A stretch of DNA of 10,545 nt. It comes from Candidatus Mcinerneyibacteriota bacterium. GTDB lineage: Bacteria > AUK180 > JAQVHJ01. A program made the position numbers and the translations under genes. Where the stretch lies: contig DAOVMD010000066.1 of assembly GCA_030630935.1 (NCBI GenBank), forward strand, positions 1-10,545. The letters are read 5' to 3'. The notes beneath the pieces were generated by a model. That model made no database searches, was not told where the DNA came from, and worked only from the letters and a program-made list of their open reading frames with translations. Below are positions 1-10,545 of this stretch, in pieces; position 1 is the first letter of the stretch; each line of letters begins with the position of its first letter.

Positions 1-2150
1 TAACGAAGCCCGTCAAGAAAACTACGAAAAAGGTTTCCAAACTGAAAACGACTGCTAAGAAGAATGTAACGAAGCCTGCTAAGAAAACTACAAAGAAAGT
101 TTCCAAACCAAAATCTACTGTTAAGAAAAAGGTAACGAAACCCGCTAAGAAAACTACAAAAAAAATTACCAAACCAAAAAATATTGTTAAGAAAAAAGTA
201 ACAAAATCCGTTAAGAAAACTACAAAAAAAATTACCAAACCAAAAAATACTGTTAAGAAAAAAGTAACAAAGCCCGTCAAGAAAACTACAAAAAAAGTTG
301 CTAAACCTAAATCTGCTGTTAAGAAAAAGGTAACAAAACCCGCAAAGAAAACCTCAAGAAAAGTTACTAAACCTAAATCTATTGCTAAGAAGAAAGTAAC
401 GAAACTTGCAAAGAAAACCAAAAAGAAAGTTGCCAAACCGAAGTCTTCTGCTAAGAAGAAGGTTCGGAAGCCCGCAAAGAAACCCCTTAAAAAAACTGTT
501 AAACGGACTGGTTTAGAATTAAAAAAAGTAAGAGCAAGAAAACCTATCCTTAAGTCAGTTAAAATCAAAGGAAAGAAAACCAAAAAGAAAAAGCTAATAA
601 CTCGAAAAATCTTAAATGAGATTTTAAGGGAAGTTAAATCTTTTGAACAAATTTCCTATTTTGAATTAAATAGCATCATTCCTTTGGAATATGTTAATCC
701 TGAAGTAATAGAAAGGATATTTGATGATTTAGAGAAACACTCTATTATAGTAATGAGCACACGGGAATTAAATCTCCCCGAGAACAAGTTAAAGAGAGAA
801 TTACAAGAGAAGGCAGCATTAAGTGAATCAGAGAAATTAGAGGAGAAGAAGACAAGTGACCCGCTATATCTTTATTTACGAGAGATGGGTAAATATAATC
901 TTTTAACTCCTGAAGATGAAGTTAGATTATCAGAGACAATTGACGATGGTCGTAGGAATATGATCAGGTTAATTGCTATTACAAAGACTAACTTATTTGA
1001 ATTACTTAAGTTAAAAGAAAAATATATAAATGGTATTAATGAAGGGATCAACAAAATTGAGAAGATTTTAATTTTAGATAATCTTTATGATCTAAATGCT
1101 GATATGAAGAGGAAGGAAACTGAAAAATTCATTAATAATGTAAATAAGATTGATAAATACTATGAGCATTTACTTGAATTGAAGAAGAGTCAAAGAAAGA
1201 AAAAGAAGAAAAAGCAAATTGTTCTTAGTAAGGAATTTTTAAAGTTACAGAAAAACCTGGATTCCTGTGTTTCTAAGTTAAACTTATCTGATGATTTTAT
1301 TAAGAGGATTGTTTCATATTTAAAGGGTGATATTAAAAGAAACAAAATAAAAGAAGATTTTTATTCAAAGACCGAACTTCGAGACATTCTCAAAGATGTA
1401 ACAAAGACTCAAAGTTATGTTGCATTAGCAAAGAAAACAATGGTAAATGCAAACCTAAAATTAGTTGTAAGTATTGCAAAGCGTTATGTAAACAGAGGTC
1501 TTTCCTTTCTTGACCTAATTCAAGAAGGTAATATTGGATTAATGAAAGCAGTAGATAAATACAAGTATAAAAAGGGATACCGTTTCTCAACCTATGCAAC
1601 GTGGTGGATTCGTCAGGCGATAACCCGTGCAATTGCAGATCAAGCCAGAACTATCCGAATCCCTGTTCATATGATAGAAACCAAAAACAAACTCGCAAAA
1701 GTAATGAAAACCCTTATCCGAGAGAAAGGTCGTGATCCATATCCTACAGAGATTGCCAAAAAGATGAATATTCCAGTAGAGAAAGTCATTGGAATTCTTG
1801 AAACTGTTAAGGATCCTGTTTCTCTTGATATGCCAATTGGAGAACATGAAGATAGTGCATTGGGAGATTTCATTGAGGATAAAGAAGCTCAGTCACCGTC
1901 AAAATCAGTTAAGAGATTACTTTTAAAAGAACGTTTAAAACAAGTTCTAAAGACTCTTACGCATAGAGAAGGTGAGATTATAAAATTACGCTTTGGCCTG
2001 GATGGAGATTCACCAAAGACATTGGAAGAAGTTGGCGAGATATTTAAAGTAACAAGAGAACGAGTTAGACAAATTGAAGCTAAAGCATTGCGTAAACTAA
2101 GACACTCTACAAGAAGTAGATTATTAAAAGAATTTTTTGAATCTGAATAA
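1..2150 (+). CDS. rpoD: Primary RNA polymerase sigma factor (RpoD/SigA) with a lysine-rich repeat extension; 5' end outside the window
   Basis: Group 1 sigma-70 factor, which directs RNA polymerase to housekeeping promoters. The frame is open from base 3 (715 visible codons), so the protein exceeds the ~613 residues of E. coli RpoD. Order by visible codon: eight Lys-rich 22-residue repeats (1-176); basic linker (177-198); region 1.1 (about 199-251, with [20 protein letters not shown]); region 1.2 (about 285-317, [19 protein letters not shown]); a long non-conserved region with an RKKKKKK run (about 318-479); region 2 (about 480-557, [44 protein letters not shown]), which melts and reads the -10 element; region 3 and the 3.2 finger (about 558-627, [18 protein letters not shown]); region 4 with its helix-turn-helix (about 635-713, [28 protein letters not shown]), which reads the -35 element. 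The TTG at 684 lies inside region 1.1 and cannot be the true start. The sigma identity is certain; the role of the repeats is inference. Confidence 0.97.
3..530 (+). repeat. Eight tandem 66-bp repeats encoding 22-residue lysine-rich units at the sigma factor N-terminus
   Basis: Units begin at 3, 69, 135, 201, 267, 333, 399 and 465, exactly 66 bases apart and in frame with the sigma factor. A typical unit has a first half like [11 protein letters not shown] and a second half like [11 protein letters not shown], about 10 Lys in 22 residues. Units 1-7 contain no Asp or Glu at all; the eighth is degenerate and contains the first Glu. Units 3 and 4 differ at only four of 66 bases, so duplication is probably recent. 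The array is cut by the left edge, so the true copy number is unknown. Composition resembles histone H1 tails and Lys/Ala/Pro-rich bacterial DNA-binding tails, so non-specific nucleic acid binding is a reasonable inference. Confidence 0.95.
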
Positions 2151-2161
2151 TGGATTGTTAA

Positions 2162-2674
2162 ATGACCGAAAAAGTAAAAAAGATTATTTCTCAAGAATAT
2201 ATTGACGATCTTGATTCAAGACTCTTTTCAGCAGAAAATAATGATGCAGTTATTGATATGGATAAATTTATTATCTCCCAGCAGAACTTAATCAAGTTTA
2301 TCATTAACAAGATATCTGATTATCCAACTTCTATTCAGGAGAAATCTAATTTTATTAATTTCTTCATTTGGAAAGCTTTTGAAGAAAACATTTCAGAAAT
2401 CTCAATTAAGAAATTATTAATCTTATATGAGCGAAATAAAGTTTGGTTTCAGAAGATTCTTTCAGTTGCTAAAGAGAATGTTTTTGAAACTTTGAAGAAG
2501 GAAATGTTAATAATACGTCAACCCTATTTACTCAATTGGGTTTTAGAAGAACTCTTACAAGACTCAAAGTTATTTGAAGAGATTAATTTTGAAATCCAGT
2601 CGGAATTATTTATTCTATTTAAAACGATTATTGACATATTTGACATTGAAGTAAATGATAATTACTTGAAATAA
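2162..2674 (+). CDS. Hypothetical helical protein encoded directly downstream of rpoD
   Basis: 170 residues; I do not recognise the family. The protein has no Gly, Cys or His that I can find and is rich in Ile, Leu, Phe, Lys and Glu, with amphipathic stretches such as KKLLILYERNKVWFQKIL and LLNWVLEELLQDSKLFEEI, suggesting an all-alpha cytoplasmic protein. There is no signal peptide or clear transmembrane segment. The ATG lies 11 bases after the sigma factor stop, with only a weak GGA (2152-2154) as a ribosome binding site, so it is probably co-transcribed and possibly coupled to rpoD. Its last 13 bases overlap the 3' end of the convergent gene. The same-strand position suggests expression with the sigma factor; any role as a sigma partner is speculation. 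Real-gene status rests on length, context and ordinary protein composition. Confidence 0.75.
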   Translation: MTEKVKKIISQEYIDDLDSRLFSAENNDAVIDMDKFIISQQNLIKFIINKISDYPTSIQEKSNFINFFIWKAFEENISEISIKKLLILYERNKVWFQKILSVAKENVFETLKKEMLIIRQPYLLNWVLEELLQDSKLFEEINFEIQSELFILFKTIIDIFDIEVNDNYLK

Positions 2675-4341
2675 TATTTCGTTTTTTCTTTTTCTGAATG
2701 ACTTGTTACTTTAACTCTTACCCCTTCAATAACCTGAATTTTTTCCACAAAGCTATGCATCTCTAACATATCTCTTCTTAATATTGATTGTTCACTATAA
2801 GTCAACCAATATGCATTTAATCCTTGTTTTATAAAAGAATCAATATGGTCCCTATTTACATTAAAATTAATTCTATATACTAACTTCAGGTTTTTACTCT
2901 CTAATATCTTTTCGTTTAATATCCTTTTGAATGTACCCCTTTTTAATTGAGCAATAAATAGCTCCGCTGCATTTAAATTGGAAGGGAAGAAAAAGAAATC
3001 AGATGTAACTGCAAATGCCGGAATTAAGTCAGGTGGATAATTAGGAAGATTAGGGTAGAATATTTTAAACTGCCCTTTTTTCCTTACGTTTAATTTTATT
3101 AATTTTTCTGTTGATAAGTGAAAAGAATTATTAAAATAATCCTCAAGAATTTGACGTAAAGCTTTAAAGATTTCAGGATTCTTTTTTCTTTCAACAATAA
3201 AGACAGAAAGGTACTCAGTGGAGTTTTTTTCGTTTGTAAAAATATTTACTTTCGCATAAGAATTTCCAAATATCTCATTTAAATCATTTAATTTTAGGTT
3301 ATAATCATTTTTATTTTTTATAGTCTCTTTCCAAATCCAGGGGATTGATCCATGTCCAAATGAATTAACACGATTCTTTGAAATCTCTGATTCTTCAGTT
3401 ATATACTTCTTAAAAAACGAATTAAATTCCTCTTCAACTTTAGCAATAAATAATAAACAAGATCTTGGAATATAATGAAATATTTTATTGTTAATGGTAT
3501 TTATTGAGATTGATTCAGAATTATCTTTAATATTAAAATACTTATCCTCGATTATATATTTTTTCTTGAATTCATAAATAATAAACTCTGAGTTAATGGA
3601 ATTAAATTCATGATTATCCTGAGGATACCAGTATCTCTGAAAATAAGAATTCTCCGCACACCTGTCAAGGTCGAAATATGCAAACGCATTATAATTCTTA
3701 TTTAAGATATCATTCACGCCCATAAACTCGCGGTTTTCGGAAAGTTTTTTGATATCTTTTCTGCCTTTTTTAATATCGATAATCTTCAAGATTAAATCAA
3801 TTTGATTCGAAATAAAAATATTTTTTTTATCAAATAAAATCGCAAAAGTATTATCCGGATCATTTTCATTATAACCATAATATTCCACATCCAGATATTT
3901 CCTCGGTTTTAGTTTGTTTTTATTTTTCTTCAGAAATTTCTTAACTTTCTTTTCTTTATCCACCTTTACAATATAAATGGAATGAAGATCTTTAAATTCA
4001 TATAGCGCAACTGCAACTTCTTCAGATAAAAGATTTCTGAAATTTTTTTCAATTATTTTAAAACCTAAAATATTCTCATACTTTTTCAGTTCTTGCTCAA
4101 AACGTAAGCCTTTCCTTGAATTATGCATATCCTTTTTTATATCACTTTTTGAGAAATTCAGCCAGAATTTTGTTTTTTGAAGATTATTATAATGTTTTTC
4201 AAAGTCTTTTATTCCTGCGTAAAAGTAAATATTACCAGGAATTTTATCTGGAATCTCTTTGCTAAGAACTTCTGAGTATATTTGAATTGGAGATATTAAT
4301 ATACATAGAAATAATATTGAAATATTTATAAAATTTCTCAT
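2662..4341 (-). CDS. Secreted DUF3352-like protein of unknown function
   Basis: About 559 residues from the chosen start. The N-terminus has a typical signal peptide: MRNF, then a hydrophobic core INISILFLCILISPIQ, with likely cleavage near IYS; no lipobox, so it is probably periplasmic or secreted. The mature start has the pattern IPDKIPGNIYFYAGIKDFEK, followed by a segment with LLSEEVAVALYEF, a later NYNAFAYFDLDR strand and a C-terminal PAFAVTSDFFFFPS strand. This layout recalls DUF3352-type proteins, which open with a 'Pro-rich, then strand, then dL' motif and a 'lg.evalal' motif; this is resemblance by eye only. No catalytic motif is visible. An in-frame ATG at 4356 would overlap the previous gene and lacks a ribosome binding site; the ATG at 4341 starts one base after the upstream TGA and has GAGGA eight bases before it. 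It is the last gene of the minus-strand operon. Confidence 0.85.
   Translation of the reverse strand: MRNFINISILFLCILISPIQIYSEVLSKEIPDKIPGNIYFYAGIKDFEKHYNNLQKTKFWLNFSKSDIKKDMHNSRKGLRFEQELKKYENILGFKIIEKNFRNLLSEEVAVALYEFKDLHSIYIVKVDKEKKVKKFLKKNKNKLKPRKYLDVEYYGYNENDPDNTFAILFDKKNIFISNQIDLILKIIDIKKGRKDIKKLSENREFMGVNDILNKNYNAFAYFDLDRCAENSYFQRYWYPQDNHEFNSINSEFIIYEFKKKYIIEDKYFNIKDNSESISINTINNKIFHYIPRSCLLFIAKVEEEFNSFFKKYITEESEISKNRVNSFGHGSIPWIWKETIKNKNDYNLKLNDLNEIFGNSYAKVNIFTNEKNSTEYLSVFIVERKKNPEIFKALRQILEDYFNNSFHLSTEKLIKLNVRKKGQFKIFYPNLPNYPPDLIPAFAVTSDFFFFPSNLNAAELFIAQLKRGTFKRILNEKILESKNLKLVYRINFNVNRDHIDSFIKQGLNAYWLTYSEQSILRRDMLEMHSFVEKIQVIEGVRVKVTSHSEKEKTKYYFK
2668..2693 (+). terminator. Weak terminator-like hairpin plus T-tract at the end of the rpoD operon
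   Basis: GAAAT (2668-2672) pairs with ATTTC (2676-2680) around a 3-base loop, followed by GTTTTTTCTTTTTC. The stem is only five pairs with one G-C, and it spans the stop codon of the upstream gene. A second AT-only-like stem, AAGTAA (2649-2654) with TTACTT (2662-2667), lies just before it. The T-tract gives this the right form for Rho-independent termination, but the stem is weak and the tract also lies inside the coding end of the opposing gene. Confidence 0.3.
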
Positions 4342-4342
4342 A

Positions 4343-7300
4343 TCATTTTTCCTCATTCTTGAAATATTTTCGGTATCTAACCGGTGAAGATAATAACATC
4401 ATCTTTTTACATTTTTCTAAACTATCCTGCTCATTAAGTGATTTGAAATATTCATATTCAAATTGAAGTAGTGTAAAGTTAAAGGGATTAATAAGTTCTG
4501 CTTGATTTTTCATTTTTTTAAATAATTCTTCGTCCTTAATAAATTCAGCAGTTTTAATTAGGACAATAACATATTTCAACTCATTAGGATTATTATCTAT
4601 TAATTGTTTTAATTCCTCTGTTAATTCACCTAACATTGTATTTAATTTAAAACTCGAAAAACCAATTAGTATTTGTTCTTTTTTCGTTATTTCTGTTGTA
4701 GCAGTTAAAAGTTCTGTATAAATATCAATCGCTTCTTTATGTTTATTATTTTCATTTAAAAGAGAAATTAATTTTAAAACCTCCTTTATAGAATCCGGGT
4801 TCATTTTGTAGTAGTTATACCTATATTGAATTGCGAGTTCCTGAAAAGAAAACTCTTCCGCAAGGTCAGCTGACTTCCTGATATGGATAGAATAACTATG
4901 ATTCAACCCGTAATACTTCTTTAAATTTCTTTTACAAGCGTCAAAATCACCCTGGGCATAATTTAAATTAGTCAGAGCTTCATAACCGATTTCCAATTTA
5001 GTTGGGTTTCGGGAAGTGATAAGTTTCTCAATTTCCATTTCGGCTTCATCGAAATCATTAATTTTAATTAAGGATAAGATATATAGCTTCAATAAATAGT
5101 CATTTCTAAGGATATCATTTTGCTCAATTCGTTTTCTGGAAATAAAATTAATCGGTTCTTGATACTGCTCTGTCTTCCAGTACAAATTGATAACATCTTC
5201 CAAAAATTTATTTTGTTTTGGAAAACTATTTGATAGTTTTTCAAATATCTCAATCTTTTGGTTTGCAAATTCATCATGATAGTTATTTTCAATAAAATAT
5301 ATTACATCCGTCATTTGCCAATTATAAGGGTCTTTAGCTTTAACTATCTCATCAATAATTGTCGAAAGGATATCTATACCTATCTCCGGATGACCAATTT
5401 CATTAAAGGTTTTTGCAATATTAATCAACCTGGAATTGTGATGAATATTTTTCTCTTTAATGGAATTAAGGTACTCAATAGCTGCGGTATCATCACCAAG
5501 TTTGTAAAGGAATTTCGCTTTTTTTAGTTGATTGTTAAAATCATTTTTTAAGTATAATCCAAAATCAAAATATTTAATTGCTTCTTCTTTTAATCCCAAT
5601 TTCAAGAGATATTCTGAGAATTCAAGATACTTAATATCGCGTAAAGGCAATTCTTCAAGGATCTCTGAGCCATATTTAATTGCTTCATCTATCATTCCAA
5701 GCTCAGCAAGTATTTCACCATATAATTTTGGATAGGAATGAGCAGACTTCTCTAAGCGGGTACGCGCATCTTCATATTTCTTTAGCTTGATCTCAACACG
5801 CGCTAGAAATAAATCGCTTAACTTCAATTGACCTTCTTCTTTAAGTATTTCTTCATAGAGTTCTCTCTCAAATAATTTTCGATAAATATCAATATCGTGC
5901 TTACCTACTTTCTTTAATAATTCAATACCTTTCCAAATATCACCATGCCTAATGTACATATCTGCAAGCATCAATAACATAGGTTCATGTCTCGGCAACT
6001 TCAATGATTCGAGATAGGCATACTCCTTTTTAATTAAACGTAGAGAATCTACATAATCAAAAAGTACTATAACTTGTCTCTTCTTATATGAATAATACGA
6101 TGAGTTGATATATTGACTCTTAAAATCTGAAATTGCAGAATCTAATGCTTTTTTGTACCGTCCCGTAAGCATATAAAGTTTTAAAAGTTTTATTTTAATG
6201 TTTTTCTTTTCCCATTTTTTTATTGAATCTTTTTTTAATTTTATTAATAATTCTTCTGCATGCTTATATAATTTATGCTTTAACAATATTTTGAAAACTT
6301 TAATCGAGTAATAATAACTGTAGCCTTTCCTTCCAAAAACTTTAACAATCTTCTTCCAAGATTTAACTGCCATAGCTTCATTTCCAATTTGAAAATATAG
6401 CGTACCAAGCTCTTCATATTGTAATACATTATAAGTCGGGTAAAGTTTAATTATCTTTTCTAATGCAGTAATAGCCTTTTGATATTCATTTTGTGCCTTA
6501 TAAAGATCTACTAACTTATAGTTCAAATCAATCCTACCAGGTTCAAGGAAAATTGCCTTCTCAATATATTCAGCTGAGGATGAATAATCCTTCTCAAGGA
6601 ATTTAAGATAATAACATAAGTATGCATACCTGTAATCACGGCTAACCTTCTCTTGTATCCCTTTAAAATGCTTGAATAAATTTTCATATAAATTCTGTTT
6701 CTGTGAATAAAGAAATACTTCATGGGCCAAGGTTTCATCAAGAGGAGTTATCTCCAGCATCTCCATATAAAATTGTAAGACCGTTTTAAACTTGCCTTTG
6801 TCAATAAAGTACCTGATAAATTCCCGATGAAGAGAAATCCGTTTCGAAGAATATCTATATTTATCCTTTCTTTCAAGCTGACGGAATTTTTGAATTGATT
6901 TTTGAAGAAGTTGCTTTGCTTCTTTAGATTGCCCCTGGTTTTCAAGGATCCTTGCCTTTTGAATTATGTGTGTAATATTATCTTTATCGAGATATATCAA
7001 TCTGTCAAAGGTCGAATATGCTTTATTAAACTTCTCCAATTTCACATATAAATCTGATAAGTGACTGTAAATATTTATCAATTGGTTTTTCGTATAATAA
7101 TTTTCTTCTGCTTTGAATTTATCTTCAAATCTAATCGAGACTTTTTCAAATTCCTTGACTGCACGATTATATTGTTTAATATTTTTATAATAATAAGCAA
7201 GATCAAGTTTTTCCGGGAATACCTTAATTAGTTGCTTTAGAACTTTAATACGGTTTTTTTCTTCTTCTCTGGTTGTGAAATATTTTATCGCTTTATAATA

Positions 7301-10300
7301 ATATTTCTGCTTTTTTGGGTAGTACCCTATAAGTCTGAAGTATTCATTCTTTAATAATTGATATTGTTCTTCTTGCTCGAAATACTTTATTACCTGCTCA
7401 TGGAAATATTCACCTTTGCATTTTTTTGTACCACGAACAAGTATAGAATAGGATTTTTCGAGCTCTTTAACATCTTTATAGAACAATGCAAATTCATAAT
7501 AAACTGCTGCTTCATTTGGATTTCGGTCAAGTAAAGAATTTAACTGTAATTCGATCTCTTCCTTAAGTTCCTTTTTTAATGCAAGATATTTCAATCGTTT
7601 TCTAATCTGTCCTTCAACAACCCTATTTTCATAATAATCAACGTCATCATAATAATAGTCATCATCTTCGTAATAACCTTCCTCGTAATAATTAGTATGA
7701 TAGTTCTTCAACTGGGTTTCTTTAATCCGAAATCTATTTACTAAAATTTTTAAATATTCAGTAATTGCTTTCTTATTATCTCCGAGTTGTTCATATAATG
7801 CTGCGAGTTCTTTAGCATATAAGAATTCATCATCCTGGATTATTCTTACCTGAATAATAACACTAATTGCTTCCTCAAAATATCCATAGTCAAAATAAAT
7901 CGTTGCTAACTCCTTAAATAGATTTTGATTATTTCTATCAATTTTAATAATCTCCTTAAAATATTCAATCCCCTCTTCAACATAACCTGCCTCAGCAAGG
8001 ATATCTCCTGCCTGGATGTAGTTATCCTTATTTAAAGGGTTCTGGAGTATAATTTTATCATATACCATTGCCGCCTTTTTCGGTTTATCAAAAGATTCAT
8101 ATAGATTGCTGAGTGGTTCAATAAACTTTTTGTTACCGGGAAACTTTTCATTTAGATCTTCAAAATAAGGTAGTGCTTCTTCATACATTGACATCCAGGA
8201 ATAAGCCTTTGCAATAAAATATATTTTCTTATAATTATCCGGGTTATTGCTGATCTCAATTTTTGCCTTTAAGATTTCTGACTCTAATGCTCCTTTATGG
8301 AAAAGTGATTCAAAATATTTCCTTTCAATATTGGTTGAATACCACCAGTATTTTTCTAAAAACTCAACATTAAATTTTCCTTTTGAGCATTTAGTTCTAA
8401 AATTCATTCTATAAAAGTAATCAACTAATTGGTAATTCTTTTCATTATCAATTTTAGATTCTACAAGGTTATATGCTTCAATATAATAAGAACAATTATC
8501 AATGATATAAGAATTATTTGCAAGCTCCATATATACATTCAGCAAATCAAGTAATGCACCGTTTGAATATGGGTTATACCTGTAAACTTCCTGATAAAAC
8601 TCTATTATCTTACGATACTTTTTCTGTTTCATATAGTAAGACTTAAGATAGTATTTTGCGTTATTATCTTTATATTCAACAATTAAATGCTTCAAAATAT
8701 CTTCATACTCAGTATCAAAATCTGTAGTTTGCTTTTTTATATAAAGAATTTTATTGAAAAAGATTTTAAGATTCTGTGAGTCATCTGATTTTTTTATAAA
8801 TCTCCTGCAAAATGAGAGAGCCGATTTCCAATTTCTCATTTTCTGGTGATAATTTACAATTGTTAAATAAGCTTTTTTCCTCAAACTTTCATCTTCAATA
8901 TCTTTAAGCATGGTTTCGAGATAGTTAAATAAGCGTAATTTATTATTAACTTTTAAAAGACTACTATTTAAATAGTAATATTTCTGAAAGAAAGTATTCC
9001 TTTCATATACAACAGAAAAGAACCCGGAAATTCCACCTGGTCGGGAACCTATGAGTAATTCCCCGTACGGGAACGCATCGTATAAATTAAAACTGTTTAA
9101 ATTAATTAATGCCAGGATAATTTTCACTTTTAAATCATGATTGTTTTTCTGTTTTGGATTCTCTAATAAATGCGTATTAAGAGCTTTTAAATAATAATGT
9201 TGATTATTAATTGCATGAAAGTAATCAGCTAAGTGGAGCCATTTTTCCGAGGCTTTGATATTATTAATATATTCAACTAAGTAATTTAAATCTGAATAAA
9301 AATAGAAGTAGTCCACAAGTTCAAATTTCTTTAATTTGCCTTTTTTCTCTTTTTCTAAAAGTGTTTTTTTATAGGTTTCAAAATTGCTTGATTCTGATAA
9401 TAACCTTTTATATCTTGTTGAAACCTTATAATTATATGGATTATCCTTAAGGTAATCACGTGCTAATTTTATTGCTTGATCTATTTTCTGCTGTCTCTCA
9501 AGAATCTCAAGTTCCGAAATTAAAAATGTTCCGGGATCAAATTTCTTTGATGCTTTTTTAATAAGTTTCAAAGCGGCAGTATATTTCTTCAACTCAATTA
9601 GATAAGAGATATATTCATTATAATATTGAATGGAGGCGGCATCATAATTTATTAAATTCTCATAAATTGTTTCGATACCTTTACGGTTATTCTTCAATTT
9701 CAGGATTGTAATTTTCCGTTTCAGAATCTGATCGCTATATAAGGGTGATGCATATAAAATTACATCATAAACCTCAAGAGCTTTATTATACTGAAATTTA
9801 GAAAAGAAAATCTCCGCAATTAAAAGCAGGTACTCTGCTTTCTTTGGGGAAACTTTTACAATACCATTTAAAATCGCACTACCTTTCGAGTGATTGCCAG
9901 TCTTGAAATAATAACAACCCAGTAAAAATATCTTCTTCAGATGCTCTTCTTTCCTTAGGATTTTCTTATAATCTTGAGGGGAATTAATAAATTTATCTTC
10001 GTTAAATTTTATCTTGCTTAATGAATTCTTAACATTTATTAAGTCTATTTCAGGAACTTCCCAATACCTGTTAATTAAGTTTATACTGGGAAATTTAGTT
10101 TGAAAAATATTAATTGATGTTTTCTTACCTGTGGTAATCTTGAGATGGATATTTAGTTCAATAATATGGAGCTTTATTATATCTTCCTTTATCTTTTTTG
10201 GCTTTGTAATATTAATTAATCTCTCAATTTTTTCATCCTGCTCATATCCTGGTTCTACAGGTTCTTCCGGTGGTTTTGGACAACCCGAAATTATAAGGAA

Positions 10301-10348
10301 TAAAAAAATAACTAAAATACTATAAACAGGAATTCTCAAGACTTTCAT
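4343..10348 (-). CDS. Giant TPR-repeat lipoprotein
   Basis: About 2,001 residues from the chosen start. The N-terminus is a lipoprotein signal: MKVLRI, a hydrophobic core, then the lipobox ISGC (Cys23), and a Pro/Glu-rich linker (PKPPEEPVEPG), so the protein should be lipid-anchored in the envelope. After a region of about 100 residues without clear repeats, tandem TPR-like helical hairpins fill most of the length. Clear examples in this numbering are near 170-203 (YNKALEVYDVIL), 700-771 (MYEEALPYFEDL), 774-873 (GYVEEGIEYFKEIIKID, YGYFEEAISVI, GDNKKAITEYLKIL) and 1280-1350 (NEYQKAITALEKIIKLYP). TPR arrays bind proteins; no enzyme domain is visible. A Tyr/Asp/Glu insert lies at 882-909. The ATG at 10348 is preferred over that at 10360 because it forms an ATGA overlap with the previous stop and has GGGGA upstream at usable spacing; the 10360 start has only AAGG one base away. 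Partners and process are unknown. Confidence 0.93.
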   Translation of the reverse strand: MKVLRIPVYSILVIFLFLIISGCPKPPEEPVEPGYEQDEKIERLINITKPKKIKEDIIKLHIIELNIHLKITTGKKTSINIFQTKFPSINLINRYWEVPEIDLINVKNSLSKIKFNEDKFINSPQDYKKILRKEEHLKKIFLLGCYYFKTGNHSKGSAILNGIVKVSPKKAEYLLLIAEIFFSKFQYNKALEVYDVILYASPLYSDQILKRKITILKLKNNRKGIETIYENLINYDAASIQYYNEYISYLIELKKYTAALKLIKKASKKFDPGTFLISELEILERQQKIDQAIKLARDYLKDNPYNYKVSTRYKRLLSESSNFETYKKTLLEKEKKGKLKKFELVDYFYFYSDLNYLVEYINNIKASEKWLHLADYFHAINNQHYYLKALNTHLLENPKQKNNHDLKVKIILALINLNSFNLYDAFPYGELLIGSRPGGISGFFSVVYERNTFFQKYYYLNSSLLKVNNKLRLFNYLETMLKDIEDESLRKKAYLTIVNYHQKMRNWKSALSFCRRFIKKSDDSQNLKIFFNKILYIKKQTTDFDTEYEDILKHLIVEYKDNNAKYYLKSYYMKQKKYRKIIEFYQEVYRYNPYSNGALLDLLNVYMELANNSYIIDNCSYYIEAYNLVESKIDNEKNYQLVDYFYRMNFRTKCSKGKFNVEFLEKYWWYSTNIERKYFESLFHKGALESEILKAKIEISNNPDNYKKIYFIAKAYSWMSMYEEALPYFEDLNEKFPGNKKFIEPLSNLYESFDKPKKAAMVYDKIILQNPLNKDNYIQAGDILAEAGYVEEGIEYFKEIIKIDRNNQNLFKELATIYFDYGYFEEAISVIIQVRIIQDDEFLYAKELAALYEQLGDNKKAITEYLKILVNRFRIKETQLKNYHTNYYEEGYYEDDDYYYDDVDYYENRVVEGQIRKRLKYLALKKELKEEIELQLNSLLDRNPNEAAVYYEFALFYKDVKELEKSYSILVRGTKKCKGEYFHEQVIKYFEQEEQYQLLKNEYFRLIGYYPKKQKYYYKAIKYFTTREEEKNRIKVLKQLIKVFPEKLDLAYYYKNIKQYNRAVKEFEKVSIRFEDKFKAEENYYTKNQLINIYSHLSDLYVKLEKFNKAYSTFDRLIYLDKDNITHIIQKARILENQGQSKEAKQLLQKSIQKFRQLERKDKYRYSSKRISLHREFIRYFIDKGKFKTVLQFYMEMLEITPLDETLAHEVFLYSQKQNLYENLFKHFKGIQEKVSRDYRYAYLCYYLKFLEKDYSSSAEYIEKAIFLEPGRIDLNYKLVDLYKAQNEYQKAITALEKIIKLYPTYNVLQYEELGTLYFQIGNEAMAVKSWKKIVKVFGRKGYSYYYSIKVFKILLKHKLYKHAEELLIKLKKDSIKKWEKKNIKIKLLKLYMLTGRYKKALDSAISDFKSQYINSSYYSYKKRQVIVLFDYVDSLRLIKKEYAYLESLKLPRHEPMLLMLADMYIRHGDIWKGIELLKKVGKHDIDIYRKLFERELYEEILKEEGQLKLSDLFLARVEIKLKKYEDARTRLEKSAHSYPKLYGEILAELGMIDEAIKYGSEILEELPLRDIKYLEFSEYLLKLGLKEEAIKYFDFGLYLKNDFNNQLKKAKFLYKLGDDTAAIEYLNSIKEKNIHHNSRLINIAKTFNEIGHPEIGIDILSTIIDEIVKAKDPYNWQMTDVIYFIENNYHDEFANQKIEIFEKLSNSFPKQNKFLEDVINLYWKTEQYQEPINFISRKRIEQNDILRNDYLLKLYILSLIKINDFDEAEMEIEKLITSRNPTKLEIGYEALTNLNYAQGDFDACKRNLKKYYGLNHSYSIHIRKSADLAEEFSFQELAIQYRYNYYKMNPDSIKEVLKLISLLNENNKHKEAIDIYTELLTATTEITKKEQILIGFSSFKLNTMLGELTEELKQLIDNNPNELKYVIVLIKTAEFIKDEELFKKMKNQAELINPFNFTLLQFEYEYFKSLNEQDSLEKCKKMMLLSSPVRYRKYFKNEEK
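4350..4354 (-). promoter_or_regulatory. Ribosome binding site that decides the start of the DUF3352-like gene
   Basis: On the minus strand GAGGA ends eight bases before the ATG at 4341-4339, which is good Shine-Dalgarno spacing. The alternative ATG at 4356-4354 overlaps this motif and has no purine-rich element in front of it. The site lies within the last codons of the TPR gene, so the ribosome finishing that gene stops on top of the next start. Confidence 0.65.
7622..7705 (-). other. Tyr/Asp/Glu-rich low-complexity insert in the TPR lipoprotein
   Basis: Twenty-eight residues, of which ten are Tyr and ten are Asp or Glu, including YYEDDDYYYDD. The segment follows a run of clear TPR hairpins, near ITEYLKILVNRF, and precedes a further helical segment, so it is likely an exposed loop. 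The DNA is nearly a trinucleotide tract of TAT/TAC and GAT/GAC codons. An acidic, aromatic loop outside the cytoplasm could bind cations, carbohydrate or a basic partner; none of these can be shown from sequence. Confidence 0.85.
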
Positions 10349-10545
10349 CTCTTTCCCCATACCTTCGATAAATTTTGAAGAAAAGTTATTAAAATAAAAA
10401 TTGGTCTTAAAAATGAAAAGATAAATAATTTAAATTTATTATCAGTATTATAAATATACCTCATATCACCGGTCCCCGGGAATATCTTTTTCAGAATAAG
10501 GTGAAGTTTATTAATTGGATTTTTCAATGAAAAGAAATAGAGATA
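10345..10545 (-). CDS. C-terminal fragment of an upstream gene, possibly an uncharacterised nucleotidyltransferase-family protein
   Basis: The frame is open from the right edge (66 visible residues, beginning YLYFFSLKNPINK) to a TGA at 10347-10345. The TTG at 10527 is not a convincing start, because the frame continues upstream of it. The tail contains LILKKIFPGTGDMRYIY and then a hydrophobic stretch, FIFSFLRPIFILITFL. The order 'basic helix, FP, M/L-R-Y-x-Y, hydrophobic helix with Arg-Pro' resembles, by memory, the end of NTP_transf_5-like nucleotidyltransferases; the catalytic part would lie outside the window, so this is a weak guess. Evidence that the frame is real is the ATGA overlap with the TPR gene start, typical of translational coupling in an operon. 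It could instead be the tail of another membrane-associated enzyme. Confidence 0.55.
   Translation of the reverse strand, partial: YLYFFSLKNPINKLHLILKKIFPGTGDMRYIYNTDNKFKLFIFSFLRPIFILITFLQNLSKVWGKR

Follow-up and report, generated by a model that had tools for sequence, protein, structure and literature searches.

The window, i.e., the whole stretch of DNA analyzed here (one entire contig of 10,545 bp), encodes a group 1 (RpoD/SigA-type) sigma factor whose N-terminus is extended by a long, polycationic and, according to its predicted structure, intrinsically disordered tail carrying tandem 22-residue repeats. In the reading that we favor with some reserve, drawn by analogy with characterized lysine-rich proteins, this tail would be a histone H1-like extension that gives the holoenzyme non-specific affinity for nucleic acids. 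The frame (3–2150, plus strand) stays open for 715 codons from the contig edge. A preliminary description had placed a lysine-rich array in frame with a group 1 sigma factor, and this is borne out: array and all sigma regions share this single frame, with no stop, indel, or frameshift between the repeats and region 1.1 in the assembled contig. Repeats are a usual spot for assembly breaks, and the contig edge falls within the array, so that the 5′ end of the gene is missing and the visible units are a lower bound on the copy number. The parent genome is 80% complete (3.16 Mb in 471 contigs), and within it no match was found to dnaG, the gene upstream of rpoD in relatives. An antisense ORF over the array (2–583, minus strand) was rejected as a gene, being a hydrophobic mirror of the lysine codons with no gene-like signs.

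The primary sigma factor proper occupies residues 199–715 and has regions 1.1, 1.2, 2, 3, and 4 in the order typical of RpoD/SigA proteins. Four Pfam models score well above cut-off, namely region 1.2 (858–953, residues 286–317; PF00140, 39.6 bits), region 2 (1440–1652, residues 480–550; PF04542, 81.4 bits), region 3 (1677–1904, residues 559–634; PF04539, 84.2 bits), and region 4 (1944–2105, residues 648–701; PF04545, 66.1 bits), and the C-terminal half passes the TIGR02393 RpoD model (368.6 versus a cut-off of 354). Region 1.1 (612–824, residues 204–274) falls below the cut-off in the window’s own protein (PF03979, 19.1 versus 22.5 bits), but we count it as present because the model matches 29 of the 30 aligned sigmas, the segment is homologous to region 1.1 of relatives’ sigmas, and it is folded and helix-rich in the predicted structure (pLDDT ~80). 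This structure superposes on E. coli σ70 with Z of ~19–21, and some alignments pair model residue 202 with σ70 residue 7. The best family match and the dnaG–rpoD synteny seen in a sister genus, where the two genes form an operon, suggest an essential housekeeping role. MzaA, an anti-phage sigma factor, was considered and rejected, as its model matched only via the common sigma domains, at 359.5 bits where the cut-off is 800. What sets the window’s sigma apart from a typical RpoD/SigA is the disordered tail before region 1.1, together with a short, 12-residue Lys patch (1182–1217, plus strand) in the non-conserved stretch between regions 1.2 and 2.

Just downstream of rpoD lies a 170-residue protein (2162–2674) unmatched in Pfam and NCBIfam; the sister genus, too, has its N-terminus behind rpoD, at the edge of that contig (74% over 23 residues). 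A 564-residue protein on the minus strand (2662–4356), likewise unmatched in Pfam and NCBIfam, has a hydrophobic, signal-like N-terminal stretch. A further gene (4343–10360), convergent to rpoD, encodes a tetratricopeptide-repeat protein of 2005 residues that starts like a lipoprotein (LIISGC), and its nearest curated model, the PEP-CTERM/PrsT TPR lipoprotein, scores below cut-off.

The array proper consists of seven tandem 22-residue units (3–464, plus strand), pairwise 64–86% identical in amino acid sequence. TRF returned a period of 66, 7.3 copies, and 0% indels over positions 1–482, and the self-identity of the protein at a lag of 22 residues reaches 67% (z = 17.7 against shuffles). Lags of 11, 33, and 55 also stand above background (z = 5.4–5.8), which points to a unit that is itself a doubled 11-mer. 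A degenerate eighth unit (465–530, plus strand; 41–50% identity to units 1–7) is followed by a Lys/Arg-rich linker (531–596, plus strand; K10 R2), which supplies the final 22 residues ahead of region 1.1. The preliminary description had counted eight exact-period units and let the array run over 3–596; seven good units and the indel-free period stand, whereas the eighth is degenerate and the final stretch, although basic, is not a repeat unit. Its account of the charge holds. The 198-residue tail contains 87 Lys (43.9%, against an estimate of about 45%), 5 Arg, and 1 Glu; the sole acidic residue, E172, lies within unit 8, leaving the first seven units free of acidic residues, and a net charge of +91 sits ahead of region 1.1.

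AT-rich drift does not explain this composition. The window has a G+C content of 29% and the proteins of neighboring genes contain 11–13% Lys, while in the array Lys reaches 44% and Asn, Ile, and Phe are depleted (1.5%, 3%, and 0, compared with 4.8%, 9.3%, and 2.9% in the sigma core); the bias is thus specific to Lys/Thr/Pro/Val and does not extend to AT-rich codons in general. Residues 1–192 are disordered in the predicted structure (pLDDT 32–38). Low complexity, Lys-rich disordered repeats, and a near absence of acidic residues are traits of H1-type tails, and the resemblance proposed earlier is supported at this level. We liken the array to such tails but do not class it among them, since a Pfam search left the histone, HU, and HC1/HC2 families unmatched, with chance-level matches only. 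Similarly, PDB sequences gave zero matches at E ≤ 10. A search of the source genome, weak for low-complexity sequence, did not turn up the array in any other protein, and a search of 386 genomes at 1e-5 found no close copy, with a low-complexity query that missed even the tail of the sister genus.

Comparison within the phylum covers seven genomes, five of which form the sister family. In a sister genus of the same family, known from a separate assembly (MAG STE_202, contig JAQVHJ010000254.1; G001, locus L035), rpoD lies directly after dnaG, with a Shine–Dalgarno sequence (AGGAGG) and an ATG. Its sigma is 85% identical to the window’s and carries a 260-residue tail (L035:1996–2775) with 99 Lys, 20 acidic residues, and a net charge of +82, joined to the sigma at the same motif (LITRK). 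The sigmas of the five sister-family genomes, by comparison, are tailless and begin exactly at region 1.1. Were the fusion an artefact of assembly or annotation, the true protein would begin at region 1.1 as these do, and the position of the contig edge within the array would fit such an error. An independent assembly with an in-frame polycationic tail of the same kind at the same junction, complete with ribosome-binding site and ATG, together with 198 array codons devoid of stops and indels in the window, makes an artefact very unlikely. The good Shine–Dalgarno sequence and ATG of the sister tail just after dnaG also make it unlikely that the true start lies downstream of position ~530.

The 22-residue unit does not extend to the sister genus. 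The sister tail was tried as a degraded version of the array and this was rejected, the best unit match being 11/22, equalled in 356 of 1000 shuffles. Thus, charge and disorder are common to both genera and the tandem array is lineage-specific; looking for the same repeats in sigmas of related genomes, as the preliminary description proposed, yields a polycationic tail in the sister genus, but not the unit itself, and no tail in the sister family. A weak lag-23 periodicity (z = 4.5) is seen in the sister tail, possibly a decayed repeat. The Lys patch between regions 1.2 and 2 has a counterpart in the sister genus (KKASEKSSKKKKVV) and is missing from the sister family; basic patches have been added to the sigma at two places in the window’s lineage, the other being the N-terminal tail.

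We surveyed primary sigma factors by searching 386 genomes with the RpoD model, taking 100 regions from the top of the match list plus earlier loci and the first Met as the start codon. In the resulting charge count of 138 sigma ORFs (with the sister genus and G014 counted twice each), the median net charge before region 1.2 is −11, and 10 of the 138 rows pass the tail threshold, a net charge of +16 or higher in one or more 40-residue stretches ahead of that region. The window’s tail is the most positive of the ~137 sampled, with +22 over 40 residues and +48 over 100; the sister genus (+39 over 100) and L121 (+38 over 100) come next. These three and L076 are strongly net positive throughout, while in L056, L061, and L137 acidic stretches come after the Lys-rich tail. 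Nine tailed rows, including the window and the sister genus, require eight changes on a tree built from 137 sigma cores, and Lys-rich sigma tails seem to have arisen separately in several bacterial lineages, at about eight places on the tree. L121, L076, L044, L056, and L061 likewise have a positive, Lys-rich N-terminus on a primary sigma, but theirs are shorter or less charged than the window’s (at most +38 versus +48 per 100 residues), use other repeats, and occupy separate tree positions. Two loci with repeats of their own deserve mention: L121 (868–1230), outside the window’s phylum, has a tandem Lys-rich tail with GTKKKVA-type repeats, and L102 has ~six tandem PKVSAAQ heptapeptides, not especially Lys-rich, ahead of region 1.1 of a primary sigma.

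Disordered N-terminal extensions of primary sigma factors are already a known kind of feature. Actinobacterial SigA/HrdB proteins have a long one, as in the window, and that of M. tuberculosis SigA spans ~207–225 residues (PMC10011835). Removing the first 132 residues of this protein leaves promoter binding, in vitro transcription, and complementation unchanged, and its functionally critical stretch, 132–179, is acidic (PMC10011835). In contrast, the window’s tail is nearly without acidic residues, follows a regular 22-residue repeat, and is ~44% Lys. The tailless sister family and the scatter of tailed sigmas on the tree argue for separate origins of the window’s tail and the HrdB/SigA extension, in a survey whose loci were not sorted by organism. 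A direct report of lysine-rich or H1-like sigma tails was not found in the literature searched, which covered few subscription papers; as far as the described cases found go, an almost purely basic, regularly repeated sigma tail of such charge is new.

Closer in composition are the degenerate Lys-rich repeats found in the terminal tails of other proteins of DNA transactions, i.e., Streptomyces TopA, HupS, and mycobacterial HupB. The lysine repeats of actinobacterial (Streptomyces) TopA stabilize enzyme–DNA complexes and confer processivity (PMC7398561), and the lysine-repeat domain of HupS is acetylated, with DNA affinity rising on deacetylation (PMC11229371). These repeats are C-terminal, on a topoisomerase or an HU protein, whereas the window’s are N-terminal, on a sigma factor, and the likeness is one of composition, not of homology.

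The tail may also be functionally near-neutral, a reading that we consider unlikely: a charge-rich disordered extension would have grown by slippage in an AT-rich genome and been tolerated since it leaves region 1.1 undisturbed. Such an extension would be in keeping with the scatter of tails on the sigma tree and with two tailed genera that are alike in composition only, their tail sequences not being conserved. Three further points favor it and weigh against a tether at the same time: the sister family manages without a tail; M. tuberculosis SigA can do without its analogous distal tail, which calls for caution even though that tail differs in sequence; and tails of low complexity may persist because they are tolerated, not because they are selected. 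The repeat units themselves speak against neutrality. Units 1–7 have a pS of 0.465 and a pN of 0.127 in the coding frame, a ratio of 0.27 where the other two frames give 0.80 and 0.57, and 34 of the 61 minor alleles among units fall at third positions (permutation p = 0.0035), although few and non-independent units make both comparisons moderate evidence. This moderate evidence suggests that the units are no fresh product of slippage and that their amino acid sequence was preserved even as silent sites drifted. The Lys/Thr/Pro/Val-specific composition and a net charge of +80 to +90 kept in both genera also run counter to a neutral tail. The synonymous distance from unit to unit (~0.73) is lower than the distance to the sister genus, where saturation has been reached, and the array therefore probably expanded after the two genera split.

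The open frame, the sigma domain set, the tail of the sister genus, the conservation of the units, a composition that AT-rich drift does not account for, the disorder, and the recurrence at about eight places on the tree together incline us, if only modestly, toward the tail as a nucleic-acid tether. Its action is modeled on TopA, whose repeats stabilize complexes, and on HupS, whose repeat domain is regulated by acetylation. The tail would act as lysine repeats do in histone H1, HupB/HupS, or Streptomyces TopA: hanging flexibly outside the folded holoenzyme, it would bind nucleic acid irrespective of sequence, chiefly the DNA that flanks promoters, so that holoenzyme would be locally concentrated on the chromosome and early promoter complexes would dissociate more slowly. 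The unit copy number would set the strength of binding, and acetylation could tune it. A secondary effect would be charge neutralization of region 1.1. In E. coli σ70, this region is acidic, sits in the downstream DNA channel, and is displaced for open-complex formation (PMC3778932); the acidity invoked in the preliminary description thus applies to E. coli, but is weak here, with a net charge of −4 in the window’s sigma and −1 to −8 across the phylum.

The partner of such a tail need not be DNA. Long disordered polycations are condensation-prone partners of nucleic acids, and the charge density of the tail would suffice for binding another polyanion (nascent or ribosomal RNA, polyphosphate) or for driving condensation of the polymerase, with localization or sequestration, not promoter search, as the main job. 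We regard this as quite improbable, since nothing favors RNA or polyphosphate over DNA, already the working partner of sigma, and the source-genome searches, weak as they are for low-complexity sequence, gave no second protein with the same array. Returning to the tether, a broader generalization is possible, though we hold it to be doubtful: primary sigma factors may have gained polycationic lysine-repeat tails time and again, by convergence, as a module that tethers the holoenzyme to the chromosome, with repeat number adjusting promoter search and occupancy globally and the window’s lineage as the most extreme of the ~137 sampled.

Should the tail prove to bind DNA, the housekeeping polymerase’s affinity for the chromosome as a whole would be a trait evolving by repeat number, independently of promoter recognition. 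The window’s sigma would then offer a simple system for studying the limits that non-specific binding places on promoter search and on the formation of open complexes, and for asking how a strong positive charge placed beside the DNA-mimicking region 1.1 might alter gating of the DNA channel.
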